The translations under genes and the position numbers were made by a program. Below are positions 3,477 to 26,330 of a DNA stretch of 64,000 nucleotides, in pieces. Source of the stretch: Bryoerythrophyllum caledonicum (taxonomy: Eukaryota > Streptophyta > Bryopsida > Pottiales > Pottiaceae); NCBI GenBank assembly GCA_963971425.1, contig OZ020523.1:11838867-11902866 (forward strand). Direction: 5' to 3'. Position 1 is the first letter of the stretch. Each line of letters begins with the position of its first letter. The notes beneath the pieces are model-generated. The model made no database searches, was not told the origin of the DNA, and was given only the letters and a program-made list of their open reading frames with translations.

Positions 3477-5523
3477 ATGGCGAAGAAGAAAAAGATGGAT
3501 AGGGATGGGCGCGGCCAGAGAGTCGAAGAGCAAGCAGTTGTGCTCCCACCGTTGGCCCGCTTCTTCCGGACATTTCCGAAGATATGGACGAGTGTAACTT
3601 ACTAAAGTCGAGCATGAAGACAATGGGCTGCGAGGGTTTGCTCGAAGTCCCCTGGGCATGCGGGAGGAGGTATATGTCCGGGAACTCATAGGCACCCCGG
3701 ACGAGAAGTACGAGGGGTTGATGAGAGCCCATCCGGAAAATTGGAGAGTCCCGGAATGGTCCCAGGCGTACGATTTCCGGGGCGGCCGCACCAAGGTGAT
3801 GGAACGGCGGGACGAGTTCTTGACAGCCGAATTTGCGAGCCCGGCGGACCCGAAGGACGGCTACAACATGCAGGACCTTCGGCACCTGGACGCCCAGCTC
3901 GTGCTAGGGTTTTTAAACCCTATGTTTCATCCGGAAAAGCCGAAACGGGTGGTGGCGAAATGGGCCTGCACCTTCCTTGGAGTGCTCCGGGAGAAGATAG
4001 TCGTGGACTGGGGTACGCTCATGACGGAGCTGATCAACCGTCTCGTAGCCAATCTCCAGAAGGTGAAAAAATCAGCAACATCTTTGGCCTGATATGTGGT
4101 GCACCTCTATGCTCACCACCAGCAGTTGACTCAGGAGGAAATCCGGAAGTACAACGAAGTCCTCAACTTCCAACAGTACGGAAGTGACGAGTCGGAAGAG
4201 GAAGGATCCAAAGAGGAGGAGCCCGCATCGGAAGCAGCCACCACAAGTACTCCTGAGGTCCGGAAGGCTCCAAAGAGACCTCGGGGGAAGGAGCCTGAGA
4301 CGGAAAGTCCGGGCATCCGCAGCTCCTCTGCTTCGTCCGGAGAAGACGAGTCCGGACTCTCGGCGGAGACCAGCCGGAAGAGAAGGAAGATCTACAAGGA
4401 CGATTCCAAGGGACAGCTCAAATTGATGAACGAGCTCACCCGGGCTATTGGTTGGAGAGTTGGGCTCCTTAAGGAGACCAATTACATCATCACCACCAAC
4501 GTGGAGCAAATGTTCCGGAGCGTGGACGTCGATCGGCTGGAGGATGCCATCAATAGGGTGGAGGAACTCCGGAACCGGGAGACGGACTCGAAGGCGCTAC
4601 GCCTTCAGATCTCCACCATGTACCAGGCCAGTACGGAGATGGAGAGGAAAATGAAGCATTACCTCGCTGAAGCAACCCTGGCAGTGACGACCCAGAAGCT
4701 AGCTAAGGCGAAGGCCCTTGCTTCCGAAGCGGCCCAAACGGAGGTCCGGGCAGCCCTGCAATTTCTGGTCGACGTGATCAACCGGAGCCGGCTCTTCACC
4801 GAACTGGTGGAGAAAAAGGAGAAGGTCACCAGAGCCAACATCATCCGGATTCTCTTGGACCAAGCGGAGAAGATGGGTCAGACCTGGGAACATATAAAGA
4901 TGTTGGTCGACAACGTCACCGTGGAGCTTCCGGAAGACCCACCAGTACCCGGGCCGGACAACACCACGACACCAACACGGACCGCAGCCCCACAGGAACC
5001 TCCGGCCAAGTCAACACCAACTTCGGGCACCTCGGCAAATCCAGAGTTTCTCGACACTCCGTCATCTCGGACACCAACGGAAGGTATCTTGCCTCCCAAT
5101 CCGAGTACGAGTGAGATCCTGAAGACCCTGCCAGATCTTTTGTCGCCGCCCAACATGCGACTGCAAGACACTTCGGCGGAAGGTGACCCATCGGCACAAC
5201 CTAAGTTCGTGTCTCGGAGGTTGGCGCCCGGACCGAGGAGCCCATCCGGAAGCTACAGAGACCTGGTCCAGTAGACCAGGTCAGCTTCCGCGACGAAAAT
5301 GCCAACACCTCCTGTCTCGGAAGGATCACCGGAACAGCCCCCTCCACCACCGGACGCCAGGTCTCCGGTGGTTGTTGTCCCTCCAAGAGCCGGACTGTCG
5401 ACCCGGAAGACCAACCTTTCGCCTGCAACGTCAAAGAAGGCGAAGGGCAAGTCGCGCGTTCCGGTGGAAATCTCCCCCTCCCGCCGGAGTGGGAGAAATT
5501 GGGGCCCAAGTGCTCCGACTTAG
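3477..5523 (+). pseudogene. Decayed gag-like ORF of element A
   Basis: The start at 3477 matches the position of the start in the sister copy in element B. A one-base deletion near 3565 shifts the frame. In-frame stops lie at 4090-4092 (TGA) and 5272-5274 (TAG), and the frame ends at 5521-5523. The encoded protein would be about 680 residues. Its parts are a conserved N-terminal segment with DLRHLDAQLVLGFLNP and a tryptophan-rich stretch, then an acidic Glu/Ser region, basic patches that could be nuclear localisation signals, a predicted-looking helical or coiled-coil segment (about 4430-4920), and a Pro/Thr/Ser-rich tail ending in a basic SRRSGRN motif. There is no CCHC knuckle, protease or polymerase motif. 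I do not recognise the family. A gag-like structural protein of a non-autonomous element is a guess. Confidence 0.65.
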
Positions 5524-6826
5524 GTTAGTTAGGCTTTAGACTCCCTTTGCTTATTTTCGGGGTTTAGATTCTGGATCAGCTGCGATTAACGATAGGGCCC
5601 CAAGTGCACCCGGTTGCTGACGGAATCGACTGCCCATTTTTGTAGTTAGAATAGGAATTCCGGAGACGGAACTGTTCCGTGATTTGTGGATCTGAGATCC
5701 GATCTGGAACTTTTCCGGATTTCTCGGATCTTTTAAATAAGATCTAGCGGGCTTCCTATAGATGGCTAGAAGGAAGGCTAAGTTTAGAAGGACTCAGTTA
5801 GTACTTAGAGGTGAGGTTTTGGCAAAAACCCTTTATCTTGTCTTTCTCACTTGGTTAATATACACACACCTCTTTGCAATAGATTTGCTCTCTAGTACTT
5901 TGTGAGTGTGGTGTATGCTTTGTGAGTAGCAGATTCATTCTTGAGGGAGAAGTTGTGTCAACATCCTTCCGGAGTGTTGTGAGGGTTAGTTTGGATAGAG
6001 AAATACCGGTCAAGATCCGTGTCGGGAGATCGCCTGGGAGAGCTGGAGGGCTATTGCAAAGGTGTGCCTGGTAGACTCCAGGGTTCGGAAGTAGCCAAGA
6101 GGGGAGGAGACGAACTGCAGAGGTGTTCCTGGTAGTCTCTAGGAAACGGAGTAATCCGTGTTAACCTGAATTCCGGTCAAAGCCGGAGTTTTCCCCCAAG
6201 ATAGGAAAAAGCCCGATATGTAGGTCTAGACGGAGTACTTTGACGAGACATCTCCATCGTCCCCGGAGGATCACAAGTTCACTCACCGGAATGTTGTTGT
6301 AGTCCGGACTTAGCTCTGTGTGACCGCGTCCGGAAGGCCTGCCGGACGTTGTGAGAGTGTAAGTTTAGCAACAACAATCAACTTATCCAGTTAGTAGAGT
6401 AGGAGAGTGGTGTTTGGTCACTATAAGTTCCGGACAGTGGGGGTCTAGCCACTTTAAATCACAAGGTAGTGAAAAATCCAGCCACTTACACAAAACAGGA
6501 TCAGTGGACTCCGGCCACTTGTTTAAAAACTCCAGGAGACACTCTGAGGAAGAATAGAGACAAATCAAACTACCCTCCCGACTTCCGGAAATTTCTTTCT
6601 GGAAATCGTTGTACATAATCCGGACTCTGGAAGGATCCGGACCTACCCTACTAAAGTTAAGAAGATAGCTAACTCGTCAATGATTGTTGTGGTAAGTTAA
6701 GTTAGTATGAGCATTTGGAAAAGAACATTAGGTCTCTGTGGGAACGAAACCGGAGCGGTTACTTTGGAAGCACTTAGTGACGATTGGGTGCATTCCGGAG
6801 GGATACTGTCTCTACGAACTGCAACA
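5524..6826 (+). other. Non-coding 3' part of element A
   Basis: No ORF is conserved with element B here. The stretch holds GCGATTAACGATAGGGC (5581-5597), a motif also found after the pol stop of the plus-strand DNMT retroelement. It also has two near-repeats around 6050-6150 (AGGTGT.CCTGGTAG.CTC), many CCGG sites, and short CAGTGG/CCACTT inverted words near 6440-6530. Confidence 0.5.
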
Positions 6827-6831
6827 AGAGG

Positions 6832-7802
6832 CTACAAACCCAAACAAGAGTGTTGAGGTCAACGACTTGACCCAAGAAGTAATGATGCTGGCCCTCAGAG
6901 AGATCCGGTGCGGCGGTGGTGATTGTCAAAAAGCCCATCCCCCACTCTCTCTTATCGGCAATAGGCTCCTCGTAAGTTTGGGAAGTAGAATCTTGAACCA
7001 TGCATGTACTGCGTGTTCTAAAGGCAAAGAACTCCAAGTAGCACATCAATGTGGGAAATGTCCTCTGGGTGAAGCCTGCGCGATTCACCACGGCCAATGG
7101 TGGCTTATCATTCTTGGTGACCTCTGTAGAAACGTGGTGATCATTGAAGATATCATCAACCCTATGGCTTGTGGGCCATCGCACCTGAGCCAATACAGAA
7201 GTGAGAGTCGCCAAAGAAGCCAGGTAGGTCCAAATCCAACGTGGCCAATGGACATATGAGCCGAATGCGGCGACATCTACAAAAGTGGGAGGACCAAGAA
7301 GGTGATGGATGTATGCACCATCCTCACGCACTTTTGTCCAAGTATCTCTCAATGGAGGTACATTCTCAAAAATGTATGCTGGTGGCGTCAATTGGTGGAT
7401 AATCTACCACTGGATGAGCCTAAGCAAGTCCGCAAAGAGACTTGACTCTGGATCATCTAAGTCGCGCCCACTACACGCCCGTGAATGGCCTTGACAAGGC
7501 CATCTGGAAATCACCAAGTCCAAGTGACCTAACTGACGTAGATCATCCTCATTTATCAACGTCATATCACGTGGCAGTTTTCCAATACACCCATAGATAG
7601 CAGAAGATGGTAACTGCTCAGGATTCAATGCCAGAAAACGTTCAATGTGATGGTGAGTTGCACGGTTGGCTACAAAGCCACTATCCACGTGAATGTATTG
7701 GCGTGCCTTGAGTCCAACCTTTAATACAACCGCCAGCCCGGTATCAATACCAGCAAATAGCTCCACAAGGGTAATACCATCATTTATTGGTCGCCAATGG
7801 CC
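6832..7802 (-). pseudogene. C5-cytosine DNA methyltransferase domain, retroelement-borne, one in-frame stop
   Basis: On the minus strand one frame of about 322 codons runs with a single TAG (7404-7406). The methyltransferase motifs appear in the family order: motif I ELFAGIDTGL (cofactor binding), a VDSG acid position, motif IV WPCQG (catalytic Cys, codon at 7496-7494), motif VI FENVPP, motif VIII-like VAAFGSYVHWPRWIW, and motifs IX-X with KREWGMGF and LGQVVDLNTLVW. The spacing, with LVISRWPCQ and FENV, resembles DNMT3/DRM-like de novo enzymes more than DNMT1. Known members transfer a methyl group from S-adenosylmethionine to cytosine C5. Oddities are the stop, the Arg before WPCQ where Gly is usual, and Trp-Pro-Arg in motif VIII. 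It lies downstream of a retropepsin and upstream of RT, as in the plus-strand copy. Identity as a DNMT is firm; activity is unlikely. Confidence 0.85.
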
Positions 7803-8194
7803 ACTAATCAGTGCAAGCTAACAACTAAGTGGAAGAGTCCACTGAGAGTTGTAGAGCATCAAGAGCGTCCACAATCTTCTAACTGCAACAAGTGAGCTCC
7901 AACCTGAGTCTTCTATGGTGGAAGTAGATCTTTGCAATGACGTGCAGGGATCTGTGGTGGTCCGTGCTTCTGTGATTTGGCTACCTCGGACATAAATGCA
8001 TATGTCACCTCCAAAAATGTCAAACCACATGGCAAATCAGATGTGAACACACTGCACCCAAACATTGCATCCGGCGTAGAAGCCACAACCCTGGCTTCGA
8101 AGGCAATCAGAATGAGCTCTTTTTTGCCATCACTAATAGACCACCCTAGCCTAATCTAGGCGTCTTCCATCCAGTTATTCACCCCAAAATTGAG

Positions 8195-8480
8195 TCAATA
8201 AAGTGCTTGCTGACCCACCAAAATGTTGTAATTGGTGGCACTAATGACAACGCAGTGAAGAGATACATGGGAGTACAATGGATAAAATCCTATGCCGAAC
8301 ATCAACTGTAGTGGATGTTGAGTGTACCCCATGGACTTCTCTTTGCCCCCAACCAATGTAGCAATCATAAATTTGCAAGGCTCAAGGTCCGAAGCACCTA
8401 GACACAAATCATAGGCTAGTCGCTTGCCAATCATCATTGGCTGAGCTCCGGAGTCGAACATAACACGCACATGGTAGCTC
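8195..8480 (-). pseudogene. Retroviral-type aspartic protease of the minus-strand DNMT retroelement
   Basis: The minus-strand frame encodes RVMFDSGAQPMMIG, a retropepsin active site with Asp-Ser-Gly. It continues with a hydrophobic stretch and ends with YNILVGQQALY, the usual end of retroelement proteases before the next domain. The homologous plus-strand copy has the same context (RVLLDSKAQPLMLG) but with Lys in place of the active-site Gly. The domain would cleave the polyprotein. It is not in the same frame as the DNMT at 7.8 kb, which shows frame decay between them (about 7800-8195). Confidence 0.8.
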
Positions 8481-9049
8481 GAGTGGGATTGCTGTCCGTA
8501 CGGCCAACCACCATGACTCCATTGTCATTCACCAAACGTACCACCTCTGGATGCACACTGCGTTGCTCCTGTGCAGCTTGGGCTGCAACTTAAAACAAAT
8601 AAGTCACCCCATAGATCAATGACTAGTCCTTAGAGGACTACTTAGTTAGTGTGGACAGTGGAAGTAGCATTGGCCTCAATTTTCAAACATGGAAATAGCC
8701 TCTGCCACCAAGTTGGCCCGATTTGCCACAAAATACTCCTCGGTGGGTGGAGCCGTCACTGCTTCTCAAACCTCTAGCGATGGCATAGGCCCCTTGCCCT
8801 CCAACATACTACCCGCCAAGTGGAATACACTGGATGGTTGAAAATCCGGTGTCAGAAAGTCCACATCGACAAACACCAACAATTGCAAGACCTTGTACGC
8901 CAAGGTGTGTACGGCATCTTCACGACTAAAAGAAACCGATGGGACCATAGGCTGTTGGGTCTTGGTCGACTAAGCTAGTATGAAAACCTGTCTCAAAGGG
9001 TGTAGGGACAAGTCACAAGCCTATGTTTGCTACCTAGTGCCAATGTAGG
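8481..9049 (-). other. Pre-protease linker of the minus-strand retroelement
   Basis: The position corresponds to the gag-protease linker of the plus-strand element (about 18500-18850). Minus-strand frames here are short (for example 8948-8766) and show no zinc knuckle. I see no domain. Confidence 0.4.
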
Positions 9050-12980: not shown

Positions 12981-13768
12981 TTTGATTTTGGAATTCTCCT
13001 AATTGAATGTAATTGCTCATTTCAATGGCAATATAAGAATCCAAAAAAATTAGAGTTCCGGCTCATGGTTTGGCAAGTAGAAGTATATCTTTCATTACTA
13101 CATACCTTCACAGGTATTTCAAATCAGACAAATATTCTTTTTTTGAGATTTTCACAAGGCAAAATACTTCAAATTTTTTGGAAGATATTCATATCATAAT
13201 GTGCTCCTATATTATAATTGAAAATTCTAGATCCAAAACTTTATTTGACTTTTAATTGTAAAAAAATTGTTATTTTTTCAAGAAGCCTAAATAAGAAATA
13301 AATGTTAATTCTTTCTCCAAATTCTTATCCAACCTTCTTTAGTATACAAAAATCTATCTTAATATAGAAAGTGTTGTCAAAAAACTTTTTTTTTCTATTA
13401 TTTTCTTTAAAACCTAGTTTTTGGTGCATTGATTCAACATATATACTGCGTAGTATATTTGGTATATTTTCAATCTCTGCAGTATGCAATATACTCATCT
13501 CAAGAAAGGATTGAGCCACCTATAAAACAACATGTGTTATGACAACACAAAGTCCAAAAATCAGCACTTTTTTCTAGATATTTGTTGTTCACCTAACATT
13601 TTATTGGCCATGATTTCTTCACATCTAATCAATGGACGGTTGACATTCAACAACAATTTAATAAAGGGCTCCAAAATAAATATACTACGGAGTATATGTT
13701 TTTTGTCCAAAAGTGAGTAACCTTAGTAGACTTCTACCCTACTTGTGAGAACGACAACAAAAGTGGTC
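12981..13768. other. AT-rich spacer between element B and the plus-strand retroelement
   Basis: Only short frames occur and none resembles a known protein. The words TACTGCGTAGTATAT (13445-13459) and TACTACGGAGTATAT (13682-13696) are near-inverted and could be ends of a small decayed MITE, which I could not confirm. Confidence 0.35.
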
Positions 13769-14141
13769 TGTCAGGTTAGGCGCGTTGGAGGGTTTGTGGA
13801 GGTTGATTTATGCGTTATAAACCAACTAGGAGGTTAAGCGGCCCAAGAAAGACCTAGATTCTAGCTCTAGTTATTTATTAGAGTTAGTATTAGAGTCTTT
13901 TGACTTTTAGGGCCTTGGTGGTGTCTTTTGACACCTCATTTGGGACTTGAAGTCCAAATGACCTCCACGTGTTGTTGAAGGAGACTCATCTTTCTCAAGT
14001 TGAGTCTCCCACGTGATGGAGTGAGAGAGTGCGTGCGTGCATGCACTTCTTTAGCTTCATTGTTATTATGCGACCATTCTGTAAGAATGGCATTGGCTTG
14101 ACTATGTGTAATTTATGAGTATTTTCTACTTGATTATTACT
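13769..14141 (+). repeat. Probable 5' LTR (truncated) of the plus-strand retroelement
   Basis: The segment matches 23978-24350 at what looks like well over 90% identity by eye, starting at TGTCAGGTT and ending near CTACTTG.TTATTA. The right copy continues for about 230 bp more to a GACA end, and the left copy does not, so the left LTR is probably truncated by what follows. A stem-like CACGTG word and a GTGCGTGCGTGC microsatellite lie inside. Confidence 0.6.
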
Positions 14142-14719
14142 TGAGAAAGATCACCACTTTGATATGAGTGTAGTTTTAGTGGATTTTTAACATTTAAAAC
14201 CTTCAAAATCTTGTGTTTGAGGTGTTTTTGAGCAATGTTTTAGTGCTTAAATTTTTGTTGCAAAAGCTCAAGCATACTTAGAAGAGAATGGATGAATGTT
14301 GGAGATAAGGTTAAAGGAGGGGTGGTGGAGAGTGACTTTCCACTACATGCGGATGAAGATCCGTTGACTTGGCGTCGCATCCAAGGATGAAAGAGTAGAT
14401 CCACTTTTGTAGGAGCCTACTGACGTTGAGGAAGGTGGATGTTGAGAGGCTGCTGTGGATTCGACTTGGCGACGTAGGGAGCTTGCTGGAGGCTGCGTGC
14501 GAGCGCGTGAGGTCGAGAGATGGAGGCTGCGAGAAGGGGAGAGTTTCATTTCGGCGATGGAAGAGGAGGATGCTTGTATTTAGTGCAACTCTGAACCACG
14601 TCGTCGTTCGTTCCGTACTCGTCGGTGCTGACGGGATTCGTGTCGCACTAAGTGTGGTCGTCGGACGGGTGTCTTGACGGCAAGTGTCAGGATCCGAAGG
14701 CGAAGGTGACCGTGGAGGC

Positions 14720-14943
14720 AACTCCGAGGTCATGATCCCCTCGATGACAAAGTTGCATTGGTCCAGGGCGTCCGCGGCGGACGTAAAGGGGCTGAACGCC
14801 ATCAGCTTTTCCACCTTCCCGAACCGGGTCACGTCCGTGACGGACTCCTGAATCGCCTCCGCATTCGGCCCGATTTCGTCAAGCCCCATCGTCTCAAATA
14901 ACGCATACCCGGGCGTAGACTCATAGAGCAAGTGTTACGTCAT
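14720..14943 (-). pseudogene. NOP56: NOP56 N-terminal gene fragment inside the retroelement
   Basis: On the minus strand, from an ATG at 14943-14941, the frame reads an N-terminus typical of NOP56, the box C/D snoRNP core protein. Visible are LLYESTPGYALFE, then GLDEIGPNAEAIQESVTD, RFGKVEKLMAFSPFTSA, DALDQCNF and EGIMTSEL. The third codon is TAA (14937-14935), so this copy cannot make the protein. Similarity ends near 14720. The piece is GC-rich, unlike its surroundings, and antisense to the retroelement. It is therefore a captured or nested gene fragment rather than an active gene. The frame continues to 14311 as Ser/Pro-rich sequence that does not match NOP56 and may be retained intron. Confidence 0.8.
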
Positions 14944-15339
14944 TGTTTCGGCTGTGTTCGGCGGTGGAGAGTGCAACGAAGAATTTTAGTTTTGGAAGGA
15001 GTGAATTTGTCTATGGTTCTGTGAGTTGGGCTGTATGTGCAGGCGTAGGGTGTGTGTGCAAACGCAGGCTTTGTGTGCAGAAGCGGGAGTTGCGGTATGC
15101 ACAAAGACGCGATTGACAGGAATGTCAGCAACTGGGAGTGCATTGGTTTCAGGGTGCCACGGCTGATGCACGTTTGAATTGGGGTGTTGGAGCCGTCTTT
15201 TGAACCAACCGCTGAGAGGCGCTGAGGGGAGTGATTTTGTGAGTTGAGGGTTGATAGTACGGTGTAGACGCGAGGAGTGTGTAGACACGGAGGGAGATTC
15301 GGCGTTCACAGACAGGGCGCAGACACAGTCTGCGCGGTA

Positions 15340-15665
15340 CCCTACCCGGGCTATGGTACTTATACCCGGACTCTGCTACCCTATCCGGCTGCTGCTATTC
15401 ACACTTGACTGCTGCTGCTGATACCCGGTTCGGATACTTATACCCGTTACTGATACTGTATTCGGTAGTGGCTGCTGCTACCCGCCTGGTTGCTGATACC
15501 CAAGTTTGCGTATTATATCCGGATTCACGCCTTGTACCCGGATTTGCGTCTGATACTCGGTTTTGTATGCTAATACCCGATTTAGGTCTTGATGCCCGGG
15601 TTGTGTCCTACATACCCAATTGTGCTGCTGATACCCGCTGGACACTGATATCCGCTAGGCGCTTA
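15340..15665 (+). repeat. Degenerate tandem array of a GATACCCG-type word
   Basis: About twenty imperfect copies of words such as CTGATACCCG, CTTATACCCG and GCTACCCG follow each other at 10-25-bp spacing. Related words in inverse orientation (CGGGTATC) occur at 46.5 kb and 48.4 kb. The array lies in the 5' untranslated part of the plus-strand retroelement. No role is known. Confidence 0.6.
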
Positions 15666-15725
15666 TACATGCTTGTGCCAATATTTGGTTCTTTTGCCAA
15701 TATATGGTTCTTGTACTAATGCCTT

Positions 15726-16047
15726 GTTCACACTGGAACTTTCGGATTATATAGAGATCCAGTTATTATGTTACCTCGTTCACACTGCAGTTTCGTGGGA
15801 TTCGCGGAACCGGTTAGTTGTGATACATGTTTACACTGCGAAGATCGGGTTCGGGTTATTTTGTGAACTAGTTGCTGAATTTTTTTGTTCACACTGTGGA
15901 TGTGAGATATCTTAGAACTAGCTATTGCCCGACCCTGTTCACACTGCAGGTTTGGGCTTTGAGAACCGATTATTTCGTAGTCCCGTTCACACTGGGGTTT
16001 CTTCAAATGCACGGAACTAGTTATATTTCAAGCCTTTTCACACTGCC
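15726..16047 (+). repeat. Periodic GTTCACACTG array upstream of gag
   Basis: The word GTTCACACTG, or a one-base variant, starts at 15726, 15778, 15829, 15887, 15937, 15985 and about 16037, a period of 48-58 bp. Between the words a weaker GAACTAGTTATT-type block recurs, so the array is a diverged tandem repeat of about 52 bp. It lies directly before the gag start and could be a promoter, enhancer or packaging array of the element. That role is inference. Confidence 0.7.
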
Positions 16048-16099
16048 GATGAGGTTTGGCGAAGAATGGATGTCTTTCATTTGGGAAGGATGATATCTT

Positions 16100-16729
16100 A
16101 TGTGCATCCATGAAACTTTGATTCGTTCTATTTTCATCCAAAAATGGATGAATATTAAAAATATCATTCAACAAGGATTCATTCATGGTTTAAAGGTGCT
16201 TCAAGGATATTTGGGACTTAAATTATGGACCATGGAGGGTAGAGGTAAGTCTAAGAAACCTGAGAAGGCTAGTGGGCCAAAGGTGGAAATTAATGAGGAA
16301 GTGTTGGACATCTTGATCACTTGCTCGCAGAGCCCACAAGTGAAGGGTTCTCCCTCCGCAGCAAGCGATAGCCACAGGAACTTTGAGCTCTCTCCCATAG
16401 CTAGATCTCGTACAGGGCCCCAGAACTTGCGTAAACCAAGCACGAAAGTATTGAGCACGGAATCGGTGAAGTATTGGACTTTATTTGGCGGGATGCAGAA
16501 GATCCGCTCACTTCGGATGAAGGAGGGAATTCCAGCACCTTTGTGCTGCGCTCGTGGGAATGTTAGAGTTGAGGACTTGGTGATTGAAGGTAAGGCCATG
16601 GTTCTGCAAAATTCTGGATCAAGGTATGGTGTAGATGTAGAGGACTTCTCTTCAGGCATCCAACTACCAACCTTCTCCCTTATTTTCACCGAGTTTGAGA
16701 GCGAAGGGTTCTTATTCCACACTATGTGA
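16100..16729 (+). pseudogene. Gag N-terminal part of the plus-strand retroelement
   Basis: The frame is open from 16100 to a TGA at 16727-16729. A plausible start is the ATG at 16232, before MEGRGKSKKPEKASG. The protein is basic then Ser-rich with no recognised domain. Beyond the stop the same frame still encodes Trp-rich sequence (QWEVNTWQERATSVWDTL), so the stop looks like decay. Further gag pieces lie at 16960-17226 and 17262-17567. The family role would be the structural particle protein. Confidence 0.5.
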
Positions 16730-17526
16730 CAGTGGGAGGTTAACACGTGGCAAGAGCGTGCCACTAGTGTGTGGGATACTCTTACTTTAGAGTTGTTGGA
16801 TTGGGAAGTGACACCTACGATCTATGCTCCAGAGATGAGAGGAATCCATGAAGTTTGGCGATTGTTTGAGTAAATCACCAAACTAGCAATCTGGATAACC
16901 GGAAAGGTCCCGGGTTCAGACGGAGAAACACCCCCTTTTCAGTAGATGCTAGTGAGAGGGTGTTGACAGAAAATTGTGTTCAAGCAGAAGAGGCAGAGGA
17001 GAGTGCTTTGCCATTGATAGAAGAAGAGGAATTTTTTGAAAACTCAAAGGTGAGTGTTCAAGTCCCAATTTTATCCACAAAGCCTAACCAATCATACTTT
17101 CATTGGAAGGAGATGGCTTCATCATATGGAGGCGGAGAAAGAGGGATACAAAGATTTTCGGGTGCCACAGGAACCATCGAAGTTGATGACTTGAAGAGGG
17201 AGTTCACCATGTGGTCTGAACTCTAGAAGTCCCGTAATCATAACTTCAATCCGTACATGGTGTGGAGAGCATTATTTCGGTGTCTGGAGGGAGCCCCACC
17301 GGCGGACTACGGAGAGTTCGAGGAGGCTCATTTCTCAAAATTATGGCCTGGAGAGATTTTTACGCACCTAACTATGTGGACGTATTCGGTAGAGCACCTA
17401 GGGTGACATCACCACTTTTGTCCAAGGGGAAGATGGAGGAAGGCACAAGTACGATGGAGGATATGATGCATCCAGAAGGACTGGTAAATCACCCACCTCC
17501 ATTCAATCCCACTGTGGGGTTGCTTT

Positions 17527-18501
17527 GTGCAACTCCACAGAGACTATCAAGGACAGAAGGCGGATAAGATGAAGGCCCTTCGTTCCTTCACTCGTGGAGG
17601 TGGCGAGTCTTTGAGAGAGGCTCATGCGAGATTTAGAAGACTAATCTCAGCCACTCACGGAGTTACAGAGCAACAGGCAGTGCAACACTGGTATAATATC
17701 CTGGACAAGGTGTTGAAGACCTTGGTTCGCAATGAAGCATTGCGATTGGGAGTATCAATTACACTACGGTTTGTTTTTGAAACCTCGGAGCAGATTGAGA
17801 TAAATTTACTGGAAGAGAAGGCAGCCATGGGGTTTTTCAAACGTGAAGAGAAGGTCCCGAAGAAAGTTATGGTGGCCAAGGTGGCTATCCCTTTGTTTAC
17901 TGTAGACACTGGTGCCTTGTGCTTCAAATGTACGAAGCCAAGACATCTGAGGAAGGATTGCTGGGAAGATAAGACTTCCACACCTCAGACTGAAGGTTTT
18001 TGCTGTGGTTGTGGTGCCAAGGGGCATGCAGAGGCCAGCTGCTGGAAGCTTCATCCAGAGTTGAAGCCTACATGGAGCAAGGGAGCCAAAGGAGGAGGCA
18101 AGGAGAAAGAGTCCAAGGCCACTGGAGGGGAAAAGAAAAGCTGGAAAGCCAAGTTCGCAGAGTTGGAGGCCAAAATGGAAGCAATGAGTGCCAACACTAT
18201 TGTGATAGGTAGCAACCCTCAGGTTACTTCCAGTTTCCATGCTGGGGGCGGTTTCAGTTCTGTGGATGATGAATTTGGAGACATTATGTTAAGTGGCATG
18301 GCACTTGCCATCAGGGATGACACACAAGAGGCCTACGCCCTCACACGGAGTCATACTCTAATTTTCAAGGATGTTCCACGTGGAGCTAGTCCAATTCTAG
18401 ATCCTCACCATGGAAAGAATAATCGACAAGCAAGGTTGCCTCAATCCTTCACATTGGAAGAGATGGTGCCCACGTCGTCATGGTGTCTCCATCACAACTA
18501 G
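17527..18501 (+). pseudogene. Gag C-terminal part with two CCHC zinc knuckles
   Basis: The frame contains a capsid-like helical segment (SLREAHARFRRLISATHGVT and following). Two nucleocapsid knuckles follow: CFKCTKPRHLRKDC (C-x2-C-x4-H-x4-C) and CGCGAKGHAEASC-type, preceded by another Cys to give the same spacing. Then comes a Lys/Gly-rich linker. Zinc knuckles of this type bind element RNA. The homologous minus-strand gag at 25.5-24.8 kb has a similar layout. Gag is in a frame one step off the pol frame that starts at 18636. Confidence 0.75.
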
Positions 18502-18635
18502 TGACGACATCCACAGAAGCCTCACCACGAGCTGGAGGACTCACAAGAGGTTTTGGAGCATTTATGGAGGCAACAACTTCTGTGTAGGAAGCTTGTTTAT
18601 TTTCTGCTAAGATGTTGTTATAAGATGGCTATAGT

Positions 18636-19202
18636 GTGGCAGAGGTTTTTAAGACTGTAGCCTCAATGTGTGAGTTGGACAACTCCACGGGTGTTAATGT
18701 GTTGAAGACGGAGATAATTAATGCTGAAGAGAGCCAGAGTGACAACCTGGAGGGGCTGCTTTTAACAACCATGCGTGTGAAAACAATGGCCGCCAGACCT
18801 GCGATTGAGAGATCATCCATTACTCCTGGTGTGGTAGTGGTTGACAATTCTCAAGGCATTTTCCAATTCGTTGGGCCTAAGGGGAAGGTTTTTGTACCTC
18901 GACGTGTGCTTCTGGATTCAAAAGCTCAACCTTTGATGCTGGGAGCGTCCGCTATTGAAGGGTTGGATTTGACTGGGGATACTTTAGAGAAGTGTCCCTG
19001 GACCATTAGCACATCCATGTGGGGTACAGAGCACGCTACAGGGATCACAAGGGCTAAGTTGGTGTTACAACTCAATTAAAGTGATGTGGCGGATGCTAGT
19101 TCTATGAAGGTGAAGGCAATAGTCACGGAGGCCATGTCATATGATGTCTTGGTACGTTCGGCGGTGCTATTCCCAATGGGATTCACCTTGGATTTCTGGG
19201 AG
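18636..19202 (+). pseudogene. Aspartic protease domain with mutated active site
   Basis: The pol frame encodes RVLLDSKAQPLMLG at about 18903-18944. The Asp-Ser-Gly triad of retropepsins is Asp-Ser-Lys here, which should kill activity. The homologous DSGAQP in the minus-strand copy (8.4 kb) supports the assignment. A stop (19077-19079) falls inside the domain. The end, YDVLVRSAVLFPMGF, matches YNILVGQQALY of the other copy. The frame is shared with the DNMT, RT and integrase. Confidence 0.75.
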
Positions 19203-19607
19203 GAGTCAGCAAGCTATAAACTAGGATGGCAAGCAGGAGAGGGACGGAAGACTCAGCTGCCAGCTGAATTTGTTCAAGTTCTTACTGGTAACTTTGTTGA
19301 TGTGCTTGTCTTCTCTAGATGTATGAATGTGAAACCTTCATGGTTTCAAGCAGGTTTTCAAGATCCTTCTATTGTTAATCACATTTCAGAGAAGGTGGAT
19401 GTCTACATGGGCAACACAAGTGGTGGAGAGGAAGAAGGATATCAACTAGGGATTGAGGCGGCGTGGAGCAACACCACTCAATTGAGAGAGGCCGCGGAGT
19501 AAGTAGTGGAAGAAGCATGACAACATTCTATGCTACCACAGATGCAATAGGAGCCTGGATTTGACCGAGTCCTAGGGCCTCCATTAGATACTGCTACCAT
19601 CCATTCG
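19203..19607 (+). other. Protease-DNMT linker of the plus-strand pol
   Basis: The pol frame continues through 19500 with Trp- and Val-rich sequence and no recognised domain, then a stop (19500-19502) and about 100 bases of open frame to the methyltransferase. The length is comparable to the minus-strand linker at 7.8-8.2 kb. Confidence 0.4.
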
Positions 19608-20545
19608 AAGGCACCAACGGATGGCATCTTGTTGTTAGAGCTATTTGTAGGAATTGGCACAGGATTGGCAGCTATTTTATAAGCTGGGATCAAAGTTAAG
19701 CGCTACATTTATGTGGATGTGGATGAAGCAGCAAAGCATGTGGCCAAACGTCACACACGGAGACTGAAGACACAATTTTTAGAATTGTTGGCCACTAGTG
19801 CCATCAAAACTTTCTTCTCTACAGTTGTGGGCGATATTTCCTTGCCATCAGACGATGACATTCACCGTATGGGTCATGTGGACCTTGTCATTGTAGGATG
19901 GCCTTGCCAACGCATGTCTATGGCAGGAAATCAGAATGGGTTAAAAGGCTTCCGTTCTTCCAGGCTCTTTCACATGATTTGAGTGCTTCGGTTGCTTCAG
20001 ACTTCTCAGAGGCAACCGCCTAGTTTTATTGTAGAGAACGTGCCGATGGTGAGCAGTTCGAGGTCCAGGATACTCGAGAGTATGCATAGAATCCATCTGA
20101 CTTTGGGTTTGCCAGTACTAATTGATGCGGCTGTAGTAGGATCAAGAGCACATCGACCACGCTTGTGGTGGACAAATCTGGCACTAGCAGAGTTGCTACA
20201 GTCCGCGGTGGGTTGCATTAAACGTCCAGATGTGTATGTGAGTGATATTTTGGATCCTCACAGGACACCACGGCGTGTGTATCACGATGACCGGACACCA
20301 TTAGCGGTGGTTAACCACAAGGGAGAACCACGTAAGGCCTTGCCCACGTTCGTTAGCTTTGCACAGTCTTATGCTTTCAAGGATAATGGACCTAGACTTG
20401 TATGGGATTCATTGTCGTAGGAGATGGTAAAGCCCAATGCAGATGAAAGGGAGAGATTGATTTGGAGGATCTTGTGGAGAAGATCTTCTTGGAAGAACAC
20501 ACAGTTTTTCACATGGAAGAAATTGACAAACTTGATCAATTAGAA
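19608..20545 (+). pseudogene. C5-cytosine DNA methyltransferase domain embedded in retroelement pol
   Basis: In the pol frame the methyltransferase motifs occur in order: motif I LELFVGIGTGLAA (19638 on), an acidic YVDVDEA, GDISLPSDDDI, motif IV VDLVIVGWPCQRMSMAG (catalytic Cys codon 19905-19907), SRLFHMI, motif VI FIVENVPM, and motif VIII IDAAVVGSRAHRPRLWWTNL. Then comes a target-recognition-like part with TPLAVVNHKGEPRKALPTF. The pattern LFxGIxTG, GD(I/V), GRLF-like and IDA(x)xVSAxHRxRxxW is that of DNMT3-type de novo enzymes. Stops at 19680-19682 (TAA), 19980-19982 (TGA) and 20418-20420 (TAG) interrupt it. The third sits where the other copy has Gln. The region after it is poorly preserved before the RT. 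Assignment to the DNMT family is firm, and the DNMT3-like subtype is inferred from motifs. Confidence 0.88.
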
Positions 20546-20621
20546 GGACTTAAGAGCGTTATTGTGGAGGAAGGAGAGGAGTCTCCTTCACATGAGATTC
20601 AATAGCAACCAAGGGTGAAAG

Positions 20622-20793
20622 AGTTAATAAGCACTTTTTGTCGGTTAAGTTAATAAGCACTTTTTGTCGGTTAAGTTAATAAGCACTTTTTGTCGGTTAA
20701 GTTAATAAGCACTTTTTGTCGGTTAAGTTAATAAGCACTTTTTGTCAGTTAATAATTCAAGTTTCGTCGGTTAAGTTAATAAGCACTTTTTGT
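20622..20793 (+). repeat. 26-bp tandem repeat between DNMT and RT
   Basis: The 26-base unit GTTAATAAGCACTTTTTGTC + GGTTAA is repeated at 20622, 20648, 20674, 20700 and 20726, nearly perfectly, followed by a diverged copy and a partial one to 20793. It replaces coding sequence expected upstream of the RT, so it is a later expansion in a dead copy. Confidence 0.85.
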
Positions 20794-20810
20794 CTCTTCA
20801 ATACTCCCAA

Positions 20811-21400
20811 TTGATGGCTGCAGTGTTGGTGAAATTGGCTCCACCAGATTGTGAGTATACATCAGCAACGGTTTTACCATCGAAGAAGGACATTTATGAT
20901 AATTGGATTGAGGCCATTGGCCATGCCAAAGTATTTAGTACGTTAGATTTACGCTCTAGATACCACCAGATTGGATTGAGAGATGAAGACAAGGAGATAA
21001 CTACGTTTTGGGGCATTGACAGAGATGGGAAGGACCGGTTGTTTCAATGGAAGTTTTTTCCGTTTGGATTGAAGAATGCTCCAGCAGAATTTCAAAGGGT
21101 TATGGACAGAGTATTCTCGGGGTTCGATTTCGTGAGATGCTATGTTGATGACATCATTCTCTTTAGCAAGAGTCGAAAGCAACATAGACCACAGTTGATG
21201 GAGGTTTTTGCTAGATTGAGGCTTTATGGATTAAAGTTGCACCCTGGTAAGTGCAAATTCTACTTTGATCACATTGAGTACTTAGGCCACATGATTTATC
21301 CAAGTAAATTAGGTGTGGTAGCTAGCAAAGTGGAAGTAGTGATGTCTATTCCTAGACCACGAGATGTTAGTAGGTTGAGAGCATTTCTGAGGTTGTGTAA
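20811..21400 (+). pseudogene. Reverse transcriptase domain with internal deletion
   Basis: The pol frame runs VLPSKKDIYDNW, then directly IEAIGHAKVFSTLDLRSRYHQIGL. The minus-strand relative has about 29 extra residues between these points (TEKRMCGNYRPINRKT and following), so this copy has lost part of the fingers. Downstream are FFPFGLKNAPAEFQRVMDRVF, the catalytic YVDD (21141-21152), HPGKCKF and YLGHMI, all in Ty3/gypsy order. The thumb and connection follow (ITMLTRNDQPWMW). The domain copies element RNA into DNA; this copy cannot be active. Confidence 0.85.
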
Positions 21401-21559
21401 CTATTATAGAAAATTTGTCAAAACTTTCAATGCTATTGCCAAGCTAATAACCATGTTGACAAGGAATGATCAACCTTGGATGTGGGGAGATGAGGAAGAG
21501 GGGACCTTTCAACAATTGAAAGATCGTTTGGCATCAACACCAATACTTTGGAGGCCTAT

Positions 21560-21935
21560 TGCAGGAAGGACGTACCAGCTACACACAGATTGGAGCTCGT
21601 TGGGGATTGGTGCTGTATTGACGCAAATGGATGAAAATGGCAAGGAATTTGTGATTGCATATGCCATCCGGTCCAACAACAACGCTGAGGCTTAGTACAG
21701 CTCGTATGAAGGGGAATGTTTGATTGCAATATGGGCAATTGCTCATTTTCGGTGTTATCTTTATGGAAATGAATTTCTGTTAGTTATAGATCATCATCGT
21801 TTGAAATGGTTGATGGAGTCTGACAAATTGACAGGGAAATTAGCACGGTGGACCTTGATGTTGATGGAGTATGACTTCAAGGTGGTTCATAGGGCAGATT
21901 TGGTAAATATGGATGTTGATGGCCTTAGCCGCAAT
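21560..21935 (+). pseudogene. RNase H domain of the plus-strand pol
   Basis: Downstream of RT in the same frame lie LHTDWSSLGIGAVLTQ, then a TAG (21693-21695), then YSSYEGECLIAIWAI and LLVIDHHRLKWL, with GKLARW and DGLSRNP at the end. These match Ty3/gypsy RNase H with its acidic residues. The stop splits the domain. Confidence 0.8.
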
Positions 21936-22149
21936 CCAATTCCAAACCAAGACGATGATACAGGTGCTAGGTGGCATATTAAGGGTGAAACCGACCCGTT
22001 GCCAGGTTGGTATTGTTCGGTCTTTCCGGGGATATTGGCATTGAATGGAGACACCATCGCGGAAGCTACTGTGGCCACAGTGGATGAGGATGGAGGTGAA
22101 GAGTTTGGGGGCGCCAAAGATATCCATGAAGATACGAATGTGATGTAGT

Positions 22150-23095
22150 TTTTGAACGATGGAGACACGGTGGCTTCATGGTCTCATAAGAAGAGAGATC
22201 GAATTCTACAACGAGCTAAGAGGTTTGTGTGGGAGAGGACTCACCATCTGAGATTGTGGCCAGATGGTACTAAGAGGGTAGTACCAGCTCCAATAGAAAG
22301 AGTGAAACTGATTAAGGATACACATGAGGACCTTGGATACTTTGGAGTGCGGAGGACTTATAGTCTACTTCAGATTCACTATTGGTGGCGTAGAATGCAA
22401 TCCCAAGTGCAAGCTTTGGTGGCCCGGTGCATGGTGTGTGACCGGGTACGAGGGTCATTTAGCGCTCCAATGCCTCACTTACAACATTTGCCAATTATGG
22501 GCTTAGGATATAGATGGAGTTTGGATTTTACAGGTCCATTGCCAGTGACACCTCGACACAACAAGTATGTCTTGGTAATCATCGAACATTTCTCGAAATG
22601 CATAGAGTTAATGGCATTGTCTGATAAGTTCAGTGAAGGGGCCATTTATTTGTTTCTTGACCGTGTTTTGAGTCGCTTTGGAGCTCCAGCAAAGGTACTC
22701 ACAGACCAAGGTAGAGAATTCTTGGGTGAATTTCAGACGTTGTATGAGCAGGCGATGATTGATCATCGCACTACTTCGAGGGATCACCCCGAAGCAGATG
22801 GATTGGTAGAGCGCATGGTGCAAACCGTCAAGAGGGGGCTCCGGAAGTACAGCTTGAAGAAAGGACATCACCAGGATTGGGATTTGCAGCTACCGTAGAT
22901 TATAGATAGCAATGGGCTATCAGTTCAGCAAACAAGCGTCCTTGGCGTCTTTTTCACCTTACTATCAATTGTTTGGAAGGCACCCGGTTTTACCAAAGGC
23001 CATTCGAGCAGATGCTGACACCGTGTTGGCTAACATGGACAATCTAGACACGTGGGCTCAAGTGTGTGAGCAACGTGCAGAGTTGTTCAAAGGGT
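22150..23095 (+). pseudogene. Integrase of the plus-strand retroelement
   Basis: The frame gives a zinc-binding N-terminus with THEDLGYFGVRRT and CMVCDR; the second His of the usual GHxG is Tyr here. The DDE core follows: WSLDFTGPLP (first Asp), VLTDQGREFLGEF (second Asp), and HPEADGLVERM (Glu). A TAG at 22896-22898 interrupts it, and frames shift at about 22905 and 23093. The C-terminal part (YQLFGRHPVLP, then MPMALENLSIAHHRDM) is typical of Ty3/gypsy. The domain inserts element DNA and gives the 5-bp type of target duplication. Confidence 0.85.
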
Positions 23096-23189
23096 GATGC
23101 CTATGGCATTGGAGAACCTCTCCATTGCTCATCATCGGGATATGTTGCACTATGCTACAATACGGGGAGGTGGTTATCGACCGTAGGTG

Positions 23190-23569
23190 TGGCGTTTGGA
23201 GACTATGTGTATTTGCAGCAAGCACTGCCCACCACCTTGGATGTGACAACAGGAAGGATATTCTTGAGAGTTCGTGATGTGAAAGACATAGGGGTGTTAG
23301 TGTTGGAAGGTCGTGATGGCAAGATGTGGAAGGATCACACACTCAATTGTGCGCCTTGCCATTTATCACACATTGATGGGACAATACACCCTGGTCTCTC
23401 TTATATCTCTGCTGGATTATGTTGTCGGTTGTGTGGTAGTGCCAAACGGGCAGCCACAATAGTTATTTGTGACTTATGTTTTACGGGGTGGCATTTAGAA
23501 TGCTTAACCCTACCTCTTTTGGAGGTACCAGTAGATCAATGGTCTTGTCGTGACTCTTTAGCACGTTGA
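23190..23569 (+). pseudogene. Integrase C-terminus with PHD-like zinc finger
   Basis: The frame encodes GDYVYLQQALP (an SH3-like integrase tail), then CRLCGSAKRAATIVICDLCF, GWHLECLTLP and DQWSC before a TGA at 23567-23569. The spacing C-x2-C-x9-or-more-C-x2-C-x4-H-x2-C is that of a PHD finger. The final C-x2-C is C-x2-S, so the last ligand is missing or mutated. PHD fingers read histone tails; here it occupies the place of the chromodomain in chromoviruses, which suggests a role in targeting insertion. That role is inference. Confidence 0.7.
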
Positions 23570-23607
23570 GGGTCTGAGTAGACAAAGTCTAGCATTAAAA
23601 ATATGTT

Positions 23608-23639
23608 AGAGGCGATTAACGATGGGGCTCTACTTGCAC
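23608..23639 (+). promoter_or_regulatory. Post-pol motif shared with elements A and B
   Basis: GCGATTAACGATGGGGC and the following CTTGCACCCGG lie about 40 bases after the pol stop. Elements A (5581) and B (11690) have the same words at about 60 bases after their ORF stops. No other similarity was seen between the families. The function is unknown; priming, packaging or 3' processing are possible. Confidence 0.5.
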
Positions 23640-23977
23640 CCGGCCTACCCTTTGTTTATTGAGTCTTTTAGCGTCTTTTCATGTGGACCACATTGATTCT
23701 ATGGTCTGAGAGGTTTTCATTGACGATTATGATTCAGTTTATATATAAACTATGTGGTTCGCCGGTGTGAAAGGGGCTTCAGCACAGGCGAAGGGGACGA
23801 GTAAAGGACTTGTAGACCACGAGGATTGCTGATAGTGTGTGAGTGTGCATTGTTTTGTTATTTTTTAGAGGTAACGGTGGTGGTTATGTCACTATTATCC
23901 TCAAGTTGTCTCTGACTGTGCGCTCTCACCTGATTAGCACGATGTTATCTTGGCACAATGCGGTTGTGCACGACAAG

Positions 23978-24583
23978 TGTCAGGTTTGGCGTGTTGGAGG
24001 GTTTGTGGAGGTTGATTTATGCGTTATAAACCAACTAGAAGGTTAAGCGGCCCAAGGAAGACCTAGACTCTAGCTCTAGTTATTTATTAGAGTTAGTATT
24101 AGAGTCTTTTGACTTTTAGGGCCTTGGTGGTGTCTTTTGACACCTCATTTGGGACTTGAAGTCCAAATGACCTCCACGTGTTGTTGAAGGAGACTCATCT
24201 TTCTCAAGTTGAGTCTCCCACGTGATGGAGTGAGAGAGTGCGTGCGTGCGTGCACTTCTTTAGCTTCAATTTTATTGTACGACCATTCTGTAAGAATGGC
24301 ATTGGCTTGACTATGTGTAGTGTATGAATATTTTCTACTTGTTTATTAGTAAAGGGGTACTTGTAGACCGCTTACTACTTCTTGGTGTACGAGGTTATGG
24401 GTCATTTATTTCTTTTCCCTTAGTCTGGATTGTTGATAGTGTGTAAGTGTGTATTGTTTTGTTGTTTTATAGAGGTAACCGTGGTGGTTATGTCACCGTT
24501 ACCCTCGAGTTGTCTCTGACTGTGCGCTCTCACCTGATTAGCACAATGTTATCTTGGCACAATGCGGTTGTACACGACAAGTC
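23978..24583 (+). repeat. Probable 3' LTR of the plus-strand retroelement
   Basis: The segment starts TGTCAGG and ends ACACGACA, giving TGTC...GACA inverted ends. Its first 370 bp match 13769-14141. Its last part (about 24355-24583) matches 23800-23977, which directly precedes it, so the end of one LTR abuts the start of the next with only AG between. This is a tandem-LTR arrangement. Confidence 0.55.
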
Positions 24584-26330
24584 ACATCCGCGATGCTAAA
24601 AGAAAAAGGTAGCCGGGACTGATCAATGTGGTCTGGCAAATCTCCATGACGTAAATGCCCGCTACTACCCAATACAATAAAAGAGGGTGCCATTGCCTGT
24701 GTGGTAGTCTAAGCACAAGTGGAAATTGCTACCATAATCTCCTTTGAAGCGCCATAGAACTAGCGGTCTAGGGCCAAAGATAAGCCCCGACCCCTTATCA
24801 AAGGCTATGTATTTGCTACTTGCCCCAAATAGGCCATTACGCTCATCTGCTTCTTTAGCTTTGCCAATTTGACGTGAAGTATCTTCACCACATGCGATCC
24901 AGCAGCTAAATATCCTAGGCGCTTCTCCAGATGAAGAGCAAAGCTACTCTCATCACTATGGCCAAATTTGCTATAGTGAGAGCATGTCACGGGCTTCTTC
25001 CCCTTGCCCTCTGTCTTTATTACTATAGGCTTCTCCGCCTCGATCTTAGGCTTGGCCTTCATCGTGCATACCCCCTTCTTCTTGGAGCAGTTGGGGTCCT
25101 CCTTGGTGTGACAAGCCTCCGTACAAGCCCAACAATGCACAACCTTTTTAGGTTGTGCGTCCGCCAAGCTACCAGTAGTTGTAGCAAGCTTCTTCGACTT
25201 CAGAGCCTCCAGCATAGAAGTGATGAGGGCCGTAGCTTCCTTTACACTAATGGCCTTCATTAGGCCCTCCACCTCGGCAAATGCATGAGCCAATGTTTCA
25301 TTACTCTTGTACTTGAATGGGAGGTGCCAATTGATGGCCTTTTGTACCTTCTTCTCTAATTTCGGCTGGAAGATCTGCACCAACTGACGCTCTGTGAAAA
25401 CACCACTAGACTTTGCAGACAACCGTGCGACGAGGACGTACATCGTACAGGGGATATCCTCCTTTTTTTTTGGCAGCAATCAAGGTTGGTCTACATCTGA
25501 TCACGCCAAAATCCCCCATACTCCACCTCCAGATGCGCCATGAACTGCGCTAGAGGATCGAAGGCTAGCGGATTGTCAACCGACATCAATGCCGCACGTG
25601 TGGCTTCAGCCAAACGTGACATGGCCCTCATGCCAAACCGTTTGCCTACAATAGCAACGCCCTCGCCTCTGGAATCTTCACTAAAAATTCTCTTCCACGG
25701 CTCCACCTTGGGCTGCTCTGCCGTAGTTGGGATTTGGGCAACCGTACTCTCCTAGAGCACAGTCACCAATTCCACAGGTTGGCACTAGTACTCCTCAACC
25801 GGACGTAATTTTGTCGGGTGCTATGTGGTCCTCCTCCAGTACATATGAAGTGCCTCCAACTCCATAAGCTGAGGCAATAGCTCGAATGCATATCAATCGA
25901 TAAACAACGGCGTCCGTTGGCACTTCTCATCCATCTTGTTCTAGAATCACAGCGGCCAATTGGGCAAGGAGATGCCCTCAGCTCATCTTGAGAACTTGTC
26001 TCGCACGACATGATGGTGATCGTCTTCCATGTCGTCAAACGTGTCCACACCTTAAATCCGAAGCCTACGGTCGGTATCCAACATCAAAATAGACCCAAAA
26101 GCTTCGCCGATATCCGACCATGGCCCAAAGACTCTGGTGGAAGCACTCTCCGGGTGGTCTGGTGAGGGAGAGCAGTGGTACCGACTCTTGGTAATGATCA
26201 TAAACAGAAACCACCCCTGGAACTATTCGTAGGTACCATCTAAAGGGTGAGGGTACAATTGAGCAACGTGCACTTATAAAACCACCAAATCTGTGTGGTT
26301 CACCGGTCATCACCTCCACCTAGCATAGGT
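24584..26330 (-). mobile_element. Gag region of the old minus-strand DNMT retroelement
   Basis: Minus-strand frames from about 26320 to 24590 align in order with gag of the plus-strand element. It is the 5' part of the older element, cut from its protease and DNMT parts (9.0-6.8 kb) by the 13.77-24.58 kb insertion and element B. No LTR was recognised at its 5' side near 26.3-26.5 kb. Confidence 0.65.
24805..25710 (-). pseudogene. Gag with zinc knuckles, minus-strand retroelement
   Basis: The frames 25706-25491 and 25479-24805 encode MEPWKRIFSEDSRG, then a helical capsid-like stretch (NETLAHAFAEVEGLMKAI), then CWACTEACHTKEDPNC (a C-x2-C-x3-H-type knuckle) and CSHYSKFGHSDESS (a second knuckle with the last Cys lost). 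The same order and spacing occur in the plus-strand gag at 17.5-18.1 kb. A Lys-rich linker separates the knuckles. The role is RNA packaging; the copy is frameshifted and lacks its last ligand. Confidence 0.7.

Follow-up and report, generated by a model that had tools for sequence, protein, structure and literature searches.

DNMT3-carrying Ty3 elements were described from Klebsormidium in 2018 (PMC5890265; this and the other papers are cited here for parts of their text). KnitGypsy-Dnmt3 of the alga Klebsormidium nitens has an LTR Gypsy domain set and an intronless, non-rearranged Dnmt3-type methyltransferase, which lies inside the Pol polyprotein ORF. Its repeats are described as DIRS-like, and it is under purifying selection (Ka/Ks under 0.2). 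SymbioDIRS-Dnmt3 of the dinoflagellate Symbiodinium combines a retroelement-borne DNMT3 with a tyrosine recombinase and A-coding-B-A-B repeats, and de novo CG activity was demonstrated for it in yeast (PMC5890265). DNMT3 has also been placed in retrotransposons of streptophytes and dinoflagellates, named as LTR Copia and DIRS (PMC12344493), and a review states that methylase-coding transposons are absent from land plants, such as tracheophytes (PMC6338049). In its cited parts, PMC5890265 names no land-plant element where it treats land plants and bryophytes, and mentions no PHD finger, target duplications or priming site for the Klebsormidium Gypsy element. The words PHD and Marchantia are absent from its main text, in which the sole mention of a TSD concerns a LINE element. 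The main text of a plant LTR survey (PMC6317226) contains no methyltransferase, PHD or Marchantia. We found no earlier report of a bryophyte methyltransferase retroelement in the open literature, subscription papers and supplements apart.

Here, we analyzed a 64,000-nucleotide stretch of a moss genome (the window). The initial annotation had pointed to retrotransposon-borne DNMTs from dinoflagellates and a charophyte, a precedent that is correct (PMC5890265); the host here is a moss. Overall, the locus is probably best explained as a dead copy of an abundant moss Ty3/gypsy element with a Gag-level methyltransferase, readthrough, self-priming, circle integration and, more tentatively, cDNA methylation. 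The moss element is like KnitGypsy-Dnmt3 in its domain set, in its methyltransferase, in purifying selection and in its repeats, which are likewise A-coding-B-A-B, with three copies that are A-coding-B only. However, its methyltransferase lies ahead of a UAG-CARYYA stop, in the gag-protease ORF. Because this UAG stands between methyltransferase and reverse transcriptase (RT), we regard the moss element as a variant beside the KnitGypsy-Dnmt3 family and not as a member of it. With SymbioDIRS-Dnmt3 it shares the borne DNMT3 and the repeat order, but its integrase is of the rve type and its insertions are flanked by target duplications of 4 bp. Self-priming is known for the Tf1/sushi group of Ty3 elements and predicted for most Tcn1 elements, and Tcn1 occurs in mosses (PMC6317226, PMC2864245). 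Those elements carry a chromodomain, whereas the moss element has a methyltransferase and a PHD finger, and its repeats are permuted.

The methyltransferase and the element that carries it

The window contains a decayed Ty3/gypsy-type element (Table 1). The initial annotation had proposed a C5 methyltransferase with motifs I, IV, VI and VIII in the interval between protease and RT, and this was borne out. The Pfam profile DNA_methylase (PF00145) significantly matched the stop-free piece at positions 19683-19979 (29.4 bits, cut-off 22) and the frame at 19554-20417, with X at two stop codons (46.5 bits). Motifs I (FVGIGTG), IV (WPCQ), VI (ENV) and VIII (RPRLWW) are present. Compared with an intact copy, approximately 119 residues, covering motifs IX-X, are missing, and homology picks up at 20456 in another frame. 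The window copy is dead, given the two stops in the methyltransferase, the loss of motifs IX-X, the frameshifts and the 26-bp array that replaces the start of the RT. The unit copies of this array are nearly identical.

Table 1. Features of the methyltransferase-carrying element in the window
Feature	Position	Strand	Remarks
Whole Ty3/gypsy-type element, decayed copy	13769..24579	+	Ends TGTC...GACA; termini set by comparison with intact copies
Repeat A1, 5' terminal	13769..14138	+	
ATCTTTCTCAAGT, site of 13 nt that can pair with the sequence right behind A1	13988..14000	+	
ACTTGAGAAAGAT, putative primer binding site	14139..14151	+	Complement of 13988-14000
gag with CCHC knuckles	16855..18480	+	
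Protease region	18774..19223	+	By alignment to intact copy L009
DNMT3-type C5 methyltransferase, motifs I-VIII	19596..20462	+	Two in-frame stops, motifs IX-X deleted; by Pfam and alignment to intact copy
Putative leaky stop separating methyltransferase and RT: UAG in frame, with CAACCA (CARYYA) behind it	20603..20605	+	
26-bp tandem array in place of the N-terminal part of RT	20622..20750	+	
RT, RNase H, integrase (H2C2 and rve)	20775..23198	+	
C-terminal part of integrase and PHD finger	23198..23566	+	PHD is PF00628
Repeat B1	23800..23975	+	Purine-rich tract (GAAGGGGACG) just ahead
Repeat A2	23978..24347	+	
Repeat B2, outer end	24348..24579	+	

The window element aligned with intact copy L009 in two long matches (88.8% and 91.4% identical). 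Its A1 and A2 repeats show 14 differences over 370 sites, and its flanks, GGTC (13765-13768) and AGTC (24580-24583), agree in three of four bases. An older, decayed family 3 element lies in pieces on the reverse strand at 2108-8951 and 24586-26213, with its methyltransferase at 6822-7799. The family 1 element described above appears to have inserted into it, one methylase element within another. An Rfam search of the window returned nothing at gathering scores.

The domain order is gag with CCHC knuckles, protease, methyltransferase, RT, RNase H, integrase with H2C2 and rve core, and a C-terminal PHD finger. The place of the protease in this order comes from alignment and from a weak Pfam match in an intact copy only (Asp_protease_2 in L009, 19.0 bits against a cut-off of 24.3). 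The order protease-RT-RNase H-integrase with an rve core is that of Ty3/gypsy (Metaviridae), the nearest solved RT structure is that of Ty3 (E 6.9e-96), and the integrase is conserved (Ka/Ks 0.023). The view that the methyltransferase is built into a Ty3/gypsy pol stood as to the domain order but not as to the reading frame, since in intact copies the domain lies upstream of the UAG, in the gag-protease ORF. Likewise, the domain list first given was correct as far as it went but overlooked the PHD finger. The listed relatives of this finger include KDM5A/B, PHF12, CHD4, PHF21A and UHRF1, several of which recognize the H3 tail in its unmodified form.

The methyltransferase of intact copies has the motif order I-IV-VI-VIII-IX-X with catalytic residues in place, no motif rearrangement and no introns; the catalytic residues are the same in all 10 diverse elements compared. 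In sequence and predicted fold it is closest to the DNA enzymes DNMT3A/3B, and its relatives are also predicted to fold like DNMT3A/B. A tRNA C38 methyltransferase (DNMT2 type) barely matched the domain (E 0.00098). Judged from its sequence, the domain is a genuine DNMT3-type methyltransferase borne by a Ty3/gypsy element. It is evidently under purifying selection, with a Ka/Ks of 0.045-0.049 between families; values of up to 1.26 in some close pairs come from a handful of changes.

Plant cellular DNMT3 proteins (Physcomitrella PpDNMT3a/b) share the type of catalytic domain and the canonical motif order with the element, but they carry DUF3444 (PMC6453930). Neither DUF3444 nor ADD was matched in the element proteins in a profile search of an intact copy, and no cellular plant DNMT3 appeared by name among the best 120 of 263 protein matches listed. 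In a tree of 166 columns that included one fragment of DNMT3A, three of DRM and two from bacteria, the element domains formed their own group beside DNMT3A plus DRM (support 89/94). A recent bacterial origin was rejected on this tree. An origin from DRM was rejected as well: the motif order of the element is canonical, whereas that of the host DRM-like exon is rearranged. In this host gene (L027; exon on contig C3), motif X precedes motif I, and the nearest relative is DRM2. The 50 fold-comparison entries listed contained no DRM chain, which is no evidence against kinship with DRM.

Copies in the moss genome and relatives elsewhere

The genome assembly (437 Mb, 894 contigs) was searched with a single methyltransferase domain. 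There were 2143 candidate places, 118 of which were scored, and all 118 matched at 87-100% identity. The copy number is therefore at least 118, and a chance or single-copy insertion was rejected. Twenty loci, picked mostly for long frames, were retrieved and comprised 19 element copies and the host DRM-like gene. In 12 of the 19 copies, ORF1 is closed and encodes gag, CCHC, protease and methyltransferase in 1332-1371 aa; 10 of these 12 have their next long frame right behind the stop, in the same frame. A full-length ORF1 together with a full-length ORF2 of 1041-1047 aa, encoding RT, RNase H, integrase and PHD, was present in six copies (L009, L010, L011, L017, L020 and L023). Thus, the element is present in the host genome as several intact copies that share one domain order, as opposed to a single stray insertion.

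Three families (f1 to f3) are prominent among the copies. In the domain, f1 and f2 are 89% identical, and f3 is 49-54% identical to f1. The domain is identical in L009 and L010, which lie on separate chromosome-size contigs, and A1 equals A2 without difference in L009, L010 and L017, indicating that the element moved recently. By these sequence comparisons, several elements are intact and young.

Other observations concern the assembly itself. A chromosome-size moss contig carries an uninterrupted bacterial-type C5 methyltransferase of 370 aa, nearest to HhaI (L001, G000:C14:16014858-16018817), which by reading adjoins a transposase-like ORF. It represents either a transfer or foreign DNA within the assembly. 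Two full-length plastid-type matK sequences are also present. One (L030) is 92-93% identical to matK of Cinclidotus and Barbula, both of which are Pottiaceae. For the other (L029, G000:C821), Bartramia is the nearest among named matches, at 79%. Plastid insertions on C14, C3 and C9 are 90-97% identical to L030 versus 72-79% to L029. A Bartramia-like host was rejected, as the insertions on these three chromosome-size contigs fit L030 better. By its plastid sequence the host moss thus stands closest to Pottiaceae, and the second matK probably came from another moss that was co-sampled.

A protein search returned 72 relatives of the methyltransferase, including 14 named Marchantia polymorpha (45-56% identity), some of which contain RT or RNase H within the same protein. 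Further named relatives were one from Sphagnum fallax with an rve domain, three from Closterium and one from Scenedesmus (36% query cover). Among the other relatives, many often share the PHD finger. One relative (P0044) came from a transcript record. In a second search, Calypogeia fissa and Sphagnum troendelagicum were represented among the best 120 of 263 matches by matches the size of the domain. By name, no match from K. nitens was present among the 72 relatives or among the best 120 of 263. When viral contigs were scanned with the methyltransferase alignment, 23 stretches matched and none was confirmed. A 'DNA cytosine methyltransferase' assigned to a Candidatus Obscuribacterales metagenome bin (P0201) is 55% identical to the element domain; it is probably retroelement DNA misbinned as bacterial.

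Trees of RT and methyltransferase were compared for 30 elements that have both. They had 19 of 27 splits in common, and RT and methyltransferase distances correlated at 0.85, a value matched in none of 2000 permutations. In both trees, f1 and f2 of the moss join two Marchantia elements and not f3 (support 97 and 89). These data fit a single old capture followed by joint descent of the methyltransferase with the RT.

Junction stop, repeats and priming

The position of the UAG between methyltransferase and RT in intact copies assigns the methyltransferase to the gag-protease ORF. In an unselected alignment, UAG followed by CARYYA was found in 22 of the 23 copies alignable across the junction (26 copy loci examined); a separate motif count preselects CARYYA and covers fewer loci. 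The sequence behind the stop is CAACCA in f1 and f2, CAATCA in f3 and CAGTCA in L028. In L014, CAG replaces UAG, the junction stretch is deleted in L013 and L024, and L002 ends before the junction. One frame continues past the stop position in L013, L014 and L024. Throughout the window, 6 of 1780 UAGs on both strands have CARYYA next to them.

In tobamoviruses, type I readthrough has the consensus CARYYA (PMC5382211). The stop context of the element is the same as in tobamovirus replicase readthrough, but the element's stop would split gag-protease-methyltransferase from RT. Located upstream of UAG-CARYYA, the methyltransferase would be expected at the level of Gag. Most ribosomes would halt at the UAG, and the enzyme would be produced and packaged with Gag; occasional readthrough would yield RT-integrase-PHD. 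Many relatives elsewhere have methyltransferase and RT in one stop-free protein, so the stop is not lineage-wide.

The repeats of the copies are arranged as A1-coding-B1-A2-B2. Both ends were inspected in 14 copies, and perfect 4-bp target duplications were found in 11. The other three were not judgeable: no 5' end was located for L011 and L016 in the piece retrieved, and the 3' end of L022 continues into A-B units. The duplications of the A-B-A-B copies are CCTC (L009), TAGT (L010), AAAT (L012), TCCG (L013), AGGA (L017), GGCA (L018), AGCA (L019) and GTGC (L020). Those of the A-coding-B insertions, which have no A2-B2, are CCGT (L014), AACT (L015) and AGCT (L023; 5' pieces L049, L047 and L048, respectively). 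These three copies are without any terminal repeats and thus possibly dead on arrival. In L022/L050 (G000:C9:22316590-22327300), the copy is followed by further tandem A-B units with GC junctions.

The arrangement A-coding-B-A-B is the DIRS layout (PMC5890265), and the outer ends differ, with A at the 5' end and B at the 3' end, in place of the identical outer LTRs of Ty3/gypsy. It is nevertheless extremely unlikely that the element is a true DIRS type moved by a tyrosine recombinase, with the Ty3 integrase irrelevant: the element has a conserved rve integrase with H2C2, neither ORF of L009 gave a Pfam match to tyrosine recombinase (PF00589) at E 0.01, and 11 copies have perfect 4-bp target duplications. 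DIRS insertion is not known to leave a target duplication.

We favor integration by the Ty3-type integrase from a circle. The inner B-A junction reads GACA-GC-TGTC and is palindromic in all 13 copy loci in which it was found; the window has AG between the repeats. The purine-rich tract directly ahead of B1 indicates that the real LTR is probably B-GC-A and that the inserted form is permuted. The cDNA bearing B-A as its real LTR would become circular; the integrase would then cut it at the palindrome of B-GC-A, which would account for the TG..CA ends and the duplication of 4 bp. With staggered cuts in the palindrome, a one-LTR circle would give A-coding-B and a two-LTR circle A-coding-B-A-B, each with CA ends. 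One result speaks against this model. Either junction of a two-junction circle would be expected to be cut, but the other form was seen in none of the eight A-B-A-B copies with both ends located.

Directly behind A1, f1, f2 and the window have ACTTGAGAAAGAT, and f3 has ACTTGACAAAGAC; over its 13 nt this stretch is perfectly complementary to a site within A. Two positions are changed in the f3 sequence, and both are compensated in the A site. Tests on the window and on a single copy from every family, four in all, gave no complementarity of this length in any of 2000 shuffles each. The A site lies within a predicted hairpin (z of -4.2, -2.5 and -4.0 for a single copy of f1, f2 and f3, respectively). 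This hairpin (around L036:1059-1071, for example) is predicted to be stable, and its shape is kept between families despite different letters in f3. The 13-nt complementarity right behind A suggests self-priming: the first strand would be primed by the element's own RNA, in the way of Tf1. Because the 13-nt site is inside the predicted hairpin, the transcript may begin elsewhere than at this site. A tRNA 3'-end primer was rejected, since TGG is absent directly behind A1.

Possible role of the enzyme

As the most likely role, we tentatively propose de novo methylation, by the packaged enzyme, of the double-stranded cDNA of the element itself. New copies would then be already marked on entry, and the PHD finger would steer or hold the integration complex on chromatin. 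A pre-marked, soon quiet copy would be cheaper for the host and would not be seen as naked foreign DNA. The CpG observed/expected ratio, determined for one copy each, was 0.55 in f1, 0.75 in f2 and 0.82 in f3, compared with 0.69-0.72 in other window sequence. The value of f1 is low, but those of f2 and f3 are not below the window, and cDNA methylation is thus neither supported nor excluded by CpG content.

The place of the methyltransferase in frame with Gag and its CCHC knuckles, upstream of the stop, is where RNA-packaging functions sit. The enzyme could work on the genomic RNA in particles, or serve as an RNA-binding factor, and not act on cDNA; DNMT2 and DNMT6, likewise C5 enzymes, have been linked to RNA modification (PMC12344493). 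The closeness to DNMT3A/3B and the marginal match to the tRNA enzyme argue against this, and we consider it unlikely.

The high copy number, together with the Gag-level expression we infer, would mean much enzyme, and the same element encodes a PHD finger related to histone readers. Accordingly, the enzyme might act on the host in trans, methylating genes or chromatin and thereby disturbing silencing or preparing integration sites. This also appears improbable: the stop separates the PHD finger from the methyltransferase, and the host methylome of Klebsormidium resembles that of land plants despite its DNMT3 elements (PMC5890265).

That the methyltransferase is a structural spacer or a passenger without catalysis would agree with the inactive window copy and with the Klebsormidium element, whose domain gave no activity in a yeast assay from which the authors drew no firm conclusion (PMC5890265). 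We regard this as very unlikely in view of the invariant catalytic residues, the low Ka/Ks between families and the descent shared with RT. Methylation of the element's own cDNA is retained as our proposal, although the same yeast assay, the sole one we found in print for a DNMT3 from a Ty3 element, counts against it too.

As far as our searches show, four features are new. These are (i) land plants as hosts, with high copy number in a moss and presence also in Marchantia and Sphagnum, (ii) a methyltransferase upstream of a putative leaky stop of the tobamovirus type, UAG-CARYYA, (iii) A-coding-B-A-B repeats with perfect 4-bp target duplications and a palindromic B-A junction, and (iv) the 13-nt complementarity behind A, suggestive of self-priming. 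It is conceivable, though speculative, that the elements represent a green-plant lineage, from algae to mosses and liverworts, with a DNMT3-type enzyme. In its bryophyte branch, the enzyme, encoded ahead of a leaky stop like that of plant viruses, would be a Gag-level particle component that methylates the element's own cDNA, and self-primed, circular cDNA would be integrated by the Ty3-type integrase via a palindromic LTR junction. Such a lineage would stand between Ty3 and DIRS; we found no description of it.

Why a transposon bears an enzyme that hosts use for transposon silencing was asked in PMC5890265, with the Ty3 case coming from one alga. A high-copy, young and intact system in a moss, with relatives in the laboratory plant Marchantia, makes this question testable. 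With the enzyme encoded ahead of a putative leaky stop, a stoichiometry and packaging of the enzyme can be predicted. The combination of a Ty3 integrase, DIRS-like repeats, putative self-priming and a palindromic circle-type junction would amount to a natural experiment in the rearrangement of the LTR replication cycle.
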